Positions 5,319 through 7,022 of a stretch of 39,993 nucleotides of DNA are shown one piece after another; the first letter of the stretch is position 1, and every line of letters begins with the position of its first letter. The stretch is taken from the NCBI GenBank assembly GCA_021781115.1, contig JAJXXL010000253.1, forward strand, positions 1 to 39,993, written 5' to 3'. The notes below the pieces were generated by a model. It was not told the origin of the DNA, searched no databases, and was given only the letters and a program-made list of their open reading frames with translations. This stretch comes from Planctomycetota bacterium. GTDB taxonomy: Bacteria > Planctomycetota > Planctomycetia > Planctomycetales > Planctomycetaceae. The position numbers and the translations under genes were made by a program.

Positions 5319-7022
5319 ATGTCCAATTCCGCCATTCTTCCGGTTGAAAAATCGACAGAGGGCGCCGCTCCGGCGCCAGCGTCGGCCACTGCGCCCGCTG
5401 CGGCGCCGGCCGCCATTGCAATCGGCACCAACGGGTCAGCCGCTCCGCCCTTGAAACCTGAAACCGGTTCAGCACCCGGTTCGAAAGCGAACAGCCCCGC
5501 CGGTCACACGCTGGGCAAGGGAACCTCCAAGGCCAAGTTAGAGGGAAAAGCAGGTCTGGCCGAGGGCACGGGCAAAAAGAAGAAGAAAAAACGCAAAGAC
5601 GACTGGAAGTCGAAGATGACCAAAGACGCCCCCGGGCTGTTGATCAGCCTCGGGGCGCACGTATTGGTTCTGTTCGGGTTGACGATGGTGGCCCTCCCCA
5701 CAAAAGACCGCGAAATGATCGTGGGGGCGATTCTGGGCACGGTCGATGGCGACACCAATTCCGACTCGACGCTCGACACCAACGAGATCCTGCCAGACAA
5801 GATTGAAACCACGGCCCCGGCTGACACAGCACTTTCATCGCCAATGGTCGCTTCGACGAGTACCGCCGAAGTCAATGTCAGCGATCTCGACCCGCGTACG
5901 ACCGTCGATAATATGGAAGCGCCGGGCGGTGTCGGTTCCGGGCCGGGCCCGTTCAAGTTTGAAGGGGCCCTGGGCGGCCGCAGCAAGGCGGGCAAGGCGG
6001 CGCTCGTGGCGCGGGGCGGCGGCAATCTTTCCAGTGAAAAGGCCGTGAACACAGGCCTGAAATGGCTGGCGAAGCAACAAAACTCCGACGGCAGTTGGAG
6101 TTTCGCCGACGCCGACAAGGAAAATAAAGCGGCGCTCAAAAACACCACCGGCGCGACCGGGCTGGCGCTGCTCGCATTTCTGGGCGGCGGGCACACCCAC
6201 AAGAAGGGTCAGGGCGATTTTCAGAAAACGGTTCAAAAGGGCCTCGATTATCTGTTGTCTCAAATGGAAGTGAAGGAAGACGGCGGCAAGCTGTTTGGCA
6301 AAGACTACGGCCATGGGCCGATGTACATTCAGGGCATTGCCACGCTGGCCCTGTGCGAAGCCTATGCACTCACGCACGATCGCAAGCTGTTTCGCCCCAC
6401 CCAGCTCGCAGTCGATTTTATCGTCCACGCGCAGGATCCCAAGGGGGGCGGGTGGCGGTATCAACCTCAGCAAAAGGGCGATACGTCTGTCACCGGCTGG
6501 GAAATCCAGGCGCTCAAAAGTGCTCAGTTGACCCGCAAGCTGAAAGTTCCTGCGGCCACGATCGGCAAATCGACGTTCTACCTGAATAGCGTCCAGGCAG
6601 AAGGCGGGGCCAAATACGGTTACGAAGCGCCGGGCGCAACCCCGTCGATGACGGCTGTGGGCCTGTTGTGCCGCATGTACCTCGGCTGGACGCCCAAAAC
6701 CCCCGCCCTGCAAAAGGGGGTGGAATTCATCGGCCAGGTGGGCCCCTCGCCCGGCGACCTGTACTACAACTACTACGCCACCCAGGTCATGCACCACTGG
6801 GGCGGCGATCTGTGGACCAAATGGAATTCCGTGATGCGCGATCGGCTCGTCAAATCGCAAATTCAAGAGGGCGACGACGCCGGCAGTTGGAAACCGGGCG
6901 GCGATCATGGCGCCGGGCCGGGTGGGCGGTTGTACCAGACCTGCCTCAGCGTGATGACGCTCGAAGTCTACTACCGCCATTTGCCGCTGTATCAGCGCGA
7001 AAAGATGTCGGCTGAATTCTGA
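5319..7022 (+). CDS. TonB-like anchored prenyltransferase/squalene-cyclase-fold protein
   Basis: This is a 567-residue protein. The N-terminal 105 residues are low-complexity Ala/Pro/Gly followed by a Lys-rich block (KKKKKKRKDDWKSK), which indicates a cytoplasmic side. One membrane helix at about 106-127 contains S110, H114 and L121, which is the spacing of S16, H20 and L27 in TonB. After a linker, residues 238-562 form a squalene-cyclase/prenyltransferase-type alpha-toroid with QW-like motifs (QQNSDGSW, QDPKGGGW, SQIQEGDDAGSW). No DxDD acid motif of class II cyclases is present, so catalysis is doubtful. The toroid aligns closely with the C-terminal part of the gene at 23681 (shared GWxxxALKSA, PSMTA, LEVYYRxLPLYQ). 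The ATG at 5319 is preferred over the GTG at 5277 because of the promoter position. A one-nucleotide gap to the next gene suggests co-transcription. Confidence 0.85.
   Translation: MSNSAILPVEKSTEGAAPAPASATAPAAAPAAIAIGTNGSAAPPLKPETGSAPGSKANSPAGHTLGKGTSKAKLEGKAGLAEGTGKKKKKKRKDDWKSKMTKDAPGLLISLGAHVLVLFGLTMVALPTKDREMIVGAILGTVDGDTNSDSTLDTNEILPDKIETTAPADTALSSPMVASTSTAEVNVSDLDPRTTVDNMEAPGGVGSGPGPFKFEGALGGRSKAGKAALVARGGGNLSSEKAVNTGLKWLAKQQNSDGSWSFADADKENKAALKNTTGATGLALLAFLGGGHTHKKGQGDFQKTVQKGLDYLLSQMEVKEDGGKLFGKDYGHGPMYIQGIATLALCEAYALTHDRKLFRPTQLAVDFIVHAQDPKGGGWRYQPQQKGDTSVTGWEIQALKSAQLTRKLKVPAATIGKSTFYLNSVQAEGGAKYGYEAPGATPSMTAVGLLCRMYLGWTPKTPALQKGVEFIGQVGPSPGDLYYNYYATQVMHHWGGDLWTKWNSVMRDRLVKSQIQEGDDAGSWKPGGDHGAGPGGRLYQTCLSVMTLEVYYRHLPLYQREKMSAEF

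Follow-up and report, generated by a model that had tools for sequence, protein, structure and literature searches.

An alpha/alpha-toroid protein of a planctomycete on a TonB-like Ser-His membrane anchor: a candidate client of ExbBD-type motors

The window, a stretch of 39,993 nucleotides of planctomycete DNA, encodes a protein, toroid A, in which a cyclase-like domain follows a single membrane helix reminiscent of TonB. What would such an anchor serve in this genome? The TonB_C domain (PF03544) has no match anywhere in it, and neither does the Plug domain of TonB-dependent receptors (PF07715). With a genome 95% complete, its own lack of TonB_C is weak evidence alone; the family tally is firmer: of 101 family genomes, 81 lack TonB_C. 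In the phylum sample, 104 of 149 genomes have it.

Translation and TM prediction agree with the open reading frame, coordinates and single helix given by an earlier, sequence-only reading. From its N-terminus, toroid A is composed of a basic cytoplasmic segment, one TM helix, a disordered linker and an alpha/alpha toroid (Table 1). The AlphaFold model, built with 25 orthologues, consists of a long helix over residues 85-125, a region of pLDDT<50 over residues 141-220 and a confident alpha/alpha domain at 223-548. Orthologues have a hydrophobic stretch after the TM helix, which is modelled as a helix (128-138) and not as a strand, whereas the motor box of TonB type is a beta strand. A beta-strand-adding domain is also absent from toroid A, which counts against a TonB-like lever.

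Table 1. Positions of the features discussed; those without a locus prefix refer to the window, and G000 is the genome of the window.
Feature	Position	Strand	Basis
Toroid A (P0001), 567 aa	5319..7022	+	translation, TM prediction, structure model, Pfam
Lys/Arg-rich block ahead of the helix, inside signal, aa 86-100	5574..5618	+	
TM helix, TonB-like S-x3-H-x6-L-x3-A, aa 107-125	5637..5693	+	
Periplasmic linker, acidic and largely disordered, aa 126-219	5694..5975	+	pLDDT, charge
Alpha/alpha toroid domain, aa 220-560	5976..6998	+	pLDDT mostly >85, Foldseek
Metallo-beta-lactamase-fold metal-dependent hydrolase gene	7024-7710		
TPR protein, first gene of the exbB-exbD-toroid B operon	18942..22169	+	
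ExbB/TolQ-type motor protein	22249..23214	+	PF01618, E=1.4e-27
ExbD/TolR, LNLTPMIDVVF motif	23256..23684	+	PF02472, E=2.8e-28
Toroid B, sister protein of toroid A, overlaps exbD by ATGA	23681..25972	+	
HSP70-toroid A fusion ORF	L202:1688-5377		
HSP70-toroid A fusion ORF	L240:2373-6500		
HSP70-toroid A fusion ORF	L257:2466-6224		
HSP70-toroid A fusion ORF (same locus as L019)	L186:1499-5134		
Tandem anchored vWA proteins upstream of toroid A	L052:10719-14811		
Tandem anchored vWA proteins upstream of toroid A	L070:10829-14779		
Tandem anchored vWA proteins elsewhere in the own genome	G000:C165:552-4467		
exbB-exbD-exbD locus	G000:C314:2176-4065		
exbB-exbD-exbD locus	G000:C531:2980-4788		

The helix of toroid A, LLISLGAHVLVLFGLTMVA, carries S110, H114, L121 and A125. 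Alignment with the E. coli K-12 anchors of TonB (SVCIHGAVVAGLLYTS) and TolA (SAVLHVILFAALIWSS) confirms that the first three residues have the spacing of TonB S16, H20 and L27, which is also that of TolA; the fourth place holds Ala125 where TonB has S31. Among 46 orthologues, which are mutually related so that Fisher values are descriptive only, the His is kept in 45, the Ser in 40, both in 39 and the three residues together in 24, while none has the full SHLS pattern. A further set of orthologues from named assemblies has the His of the helix in 56 members, 55 of which have Ser at -4. Across 25 aligned sequences H114 does not vary and S110 is at least 90% conserved, a level that none of the remaining columns ahead of residue 220 attains. 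The Leu position is under moderate constraint (L in 28, M in 8, C in 7). The fourth position is unconstrained and Ser does not occur there in any of the 46, which counts against likeness to TonB, where the Leu and the last Ser are loose as well (PMC12215075). The sequence-only claim that three of the four TonB positions are retained thus holds for Ser and His, which are strongly constrained, but is worded slightly too strongly for the Leu.

Close homologues keep the Ser and the His, and the motif is rare elsewhere; neither of the two outcomes that the sequence-only reading named as refuting it was observed. S-x3-H-x6-L was found in 0 of 245 background helices of the own genome (395 kb) and in 4 of 604 non-toroid helices of relatives (982 kb), this background being drawn from sampled contigs of about 0.4 Mb and 1 Mb, respectively; S-x3-H alone occurs in approximately 2% of background helices. 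All four matches are single-helix vWA proteins whose genes immediately precede that of toroid A in two relatives belonging to one genus. Comparison of helix profiles sets a limit to the resemblance. The Ser, the His and partly the Leu are alike, but the remainder of the helix is unlike TonB: by the whole-helix profile of the orthologues, TolA ranks 13th and TonB only 103rd of 845 helices, so a likeness to the entire TonB helix is rejected. Taken at the level of these positions, a TonB-like anchor on toroid A is supported.

The Lys-rich block was thought to set an N-in, C-out topology like that of TonB, and the orthologues bear this out. In 42 of 46, the segment ahead of the helix is more positively charged than the one behind it; the mean net charge is +2.2 over the 30 residues before the helix and -5.3 over those after. 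Moreover, in single ORFs of 1211-1375 amino acids an HSP70 domain lies N-terminal to the His-bearing helix and toroid A (Table 1), with Pfam E-values of ~1e-117 to 1e-120 in the three fusions scanned. HSP70 is a cytoplasmic fold. The predicted N-in/C-out orientation of toroid A is therefore well supported, on account of both the charge bias and the HSP70 domains on the N-terminal side. An HSP70-like ORF is also found near toroid A at four further loci (L197, L199, L208 and L237).

The sister protein encoded beside the 22 kb motor genes connects this type of helix with a motor. Toroid B has two TM helices, the second of which (VVLSLLLHAVAGL) contains S-x3-H, as does the second helix of nearly all toroid B homologues. 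Its gene is preceded directly by exbD in nearly all visible loci, whereas exbB is adjacent in a subset only. The order TPR-exbB-exbD-toroid is found in the window and in three other genomes (G023, G065 and G032); outside the family, an ExbB-ExbD-toroid array is present in G228. A literature search found no toroid-ExbD link.

Toroid-containing proteins are widespread. Seven are encoded in this genome (E up to ~2e-15), and the family is represented in 138 of the 149 genomes sampled across the phylum. In the toroid tree, B forms one fully supported clade and A another, which includes a few distant members; the remaining planctomycete toroids are placed next to these two. Allowing for occasional Ala, Thr, Asn or Gly variants, the Ser-x3-His helix requires only 9 changes over 121 tree tips, and it recurs in 20 phylum-wide toroid neighbourhoods, often in tandem copies. 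Co-evolution of toroid A with ExbBD, as judged by presence and absence, is uninformative within the family because relatives of toroids A and B occur in 101/101 genomes.

The closest published systems are vWA proteins with an SHLS anchor, which have been proposed to form a force-transducer class of their own, newly described, and which, in planctomycetes, are encoded beside TPR-tolQ-tolR genes (PMC12204202). That paper makes no mention of toroids or cyclases. The vWA proteins with a TonB-type anchor in this genome (contig C165) and in relatives have S-x3-H in 20 of 20 cases; such proteins occur in tandem at the loci given in Table 1. Like toroid A, the vWA transducers combine a TonB-type anchor bearing a conserved His with a disordered linker and a globular domain that is not that of TonB, and they share with the toroid proteins their occurrence in planctomycetes and operons of the TPR-TolQ-TolR type. 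They differ in the outer domain, which in toroid A is an alpha/alpha toroid. TonB shares with toroid A the N-in single helix with S-x3-H-x6-L, the linker and a periplasmic C-terminal domain, but toroid A lacks TonB_C and the fourth Ser, and its genome lacks the Plug domain. TolA has the same S-x3-H-x6-L anchor, and the toroid A helix is somewhat nearer to it than to TonB; toroid A nonetheless has neither a TolA-type C-terminal domain nor the last Ser. By this comparison, the most fitting reading of the anchored toroid proteins is as one more variant of the vWA-transducer kind.

Analogy with the vWA transducers (PMC12204202) offers the best explanation of toroid A. The protein is probably an inner-membrane transducer coupled to an ExbBD-type motor, with the toroid in place of the TonB fold. 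Because the Ser-His anchor is found phylum-wide, mostly in TonB-less genomes, and the sister toroid B adjoins exbD, toroid A would probably be a new proton-motor-driven lever. With its N-terminus in the cytoplasm, the helix would dock on an ExbB/TolQ pentamer via Ser110 and His114, and the acidic disordered linker would extend into the periplasm. The toroid, probably non-catalytic, would replace the C-terminal domain of TonB and grip a putative partner at the outer membrane or the wall. The helix, and hence the toroid, would then be moved or tensioned as protons flow through ExbB-ExbD. Cryo-EM of the TonB complex offers a template for such docking: Ser16 and His20 of TonB contact Ser34 and Trp38 of ExbB, in a network that reaches Pro190 (PMC12215075).

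Which motor would drive toroid A? The window has no exbBD adjoining its gene, as had been observed, and the divergent neighbours are indeed BatA/VWA genes; as a functional clue this neighbourhood is rejected, not being conserved among relatives. Across about 40 loci, a motor gene stands beside toroid A in one, and there it is exbD only, which counts against motor coupling. This locus, in G011, has exbD, toroid B and toroid A in a row and is the sole physical link found between toroid A and motor genes; exbB was looked for beside this exbD and was not found. Against docking also counts the loss of the helix His in one toroid A sublineage (L065, L247 and L251). The genome of the window has three ExbB/ExbD loci: C76, which is the 22 kb motor, C314 and C531. 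The C314 and C531 loci have the order exbB-exbD-exbD, without an obvious transducer gene beside them; a C531 protein with a T-x3-H helix was dismissed as a transducer, being a multi-TM protein. In these motors Trp38 of ExbB is replaced by hydrophobics, which counts against docking of the TonB type. The equivalents of Ser34 and Pro190 are kept in the C76 and C314 ExbB proteins, while C531 is without Ser34, so there are at least two candidate motors. That toroid A borrows the 22 kb motor, as first proposed, is one possibility among these.

A motor other than the 22 kb one, either C314 or another TolQ-like pentamer, might instead drive toroid A, perhaps together with the upstream vWA transducers of some relatives. 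This variant is a sub-case of the motor-coupled transducer and not exclusive with it. We regard it as plausible, with the balance leaning somewhat against it: besides the three loci here and the conserved Ser34 and Pro190 of the C314 protein, MotA/ExbB genes number 4-11 in each of ten genomes examined, and in two genomes a pair of anchored vWA genes immediately precedes toroid A, but the one physical link of toroid A to a motor, that in G011, is to an exbD of the toroid B type.

It is unlikely that the helix is an anchor only, with Ser and His serving another purpose inside the membrane, such as helix dimerisation or contact with a metal or quinone, and the toroid acting as a periplasmic enzyme or scaffold. 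The usual lack of motor neighbours at toroid A would fit such a role, and toroid domains are often enzymes: Foldseek matches of the model include cyclases, epimerases and GH76. In contrast, the spacing of Ser and His is exactly that of TonB and TolA, the same helix is present in the exbD-coupled toroid B and in the vWA transducers, and TonB_C is missing from most family genomes.

The fold itself suggests an enzyme at first sight. The best Foldseek match is squalene-hopene cyclase 3sqc (E=1.1e-5, probability 1.00), and the sole Pfam match, SQHop_cyclase_C (PF13243), lies slightly over its cut-off (E=2.4e-6, 27.3 against 26.1 bits). Toroid A shares with these cyclases the alpha/alpha toroid fold and QW-like repeats, but has a single toroid and an N-terminal TM helix with linker. 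A membrane-tethered cyclase or lipid-processing enzyme of squalene-hopene-cyclase type, acting on envelope lipids, is highly improbable despite these top matches, since toroid A scores 27 bits against NCBIfam squalene/hopene cyclase cut-offs of 322.7 and 431.1, the matched stretches are QW-type repeats and not the catalytic region, and the conserved GDTSV...GW segment, as read from the sequence, is not a DxDD motif of the cyclase kind.

If toroid A is a motor-coupled transducer, the clients of ExbBD/TolQR-type motors would widen from TonB, TolA and vWA proteins to the toroid proteins of nearly all sampled planctomycetes. This would give a testable answer to the role of ExbBD-type motors in TonB-less genomes, and a likely role for a large group of proteins so far named only after squalene cyclases. 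More tentatively, and with slightly less than even confidence, we suggest that the anchored toroids may constitute a second class of proton-motor-driven transducers other than TonB, spread across the phylum, with an alpha/alpha toroid standing in for the C-terminal domain of TonB or TolA. Together with the vWA class, they would be the main ExbBD clients in TonB-less genomes. In certain lineages this helix would also tie a cytoplasmic HSP70 domain to the toroid in the periplasm, so that a single protein would combine ATP- and proton-driven parts.

The gene directly after toroid A encodes a metal-dependent hydrolase of the metallo-beta-lactamase fold (Table 1); such a gene is also found downstream of toroid A at three other loci (L054, L082 and L084).
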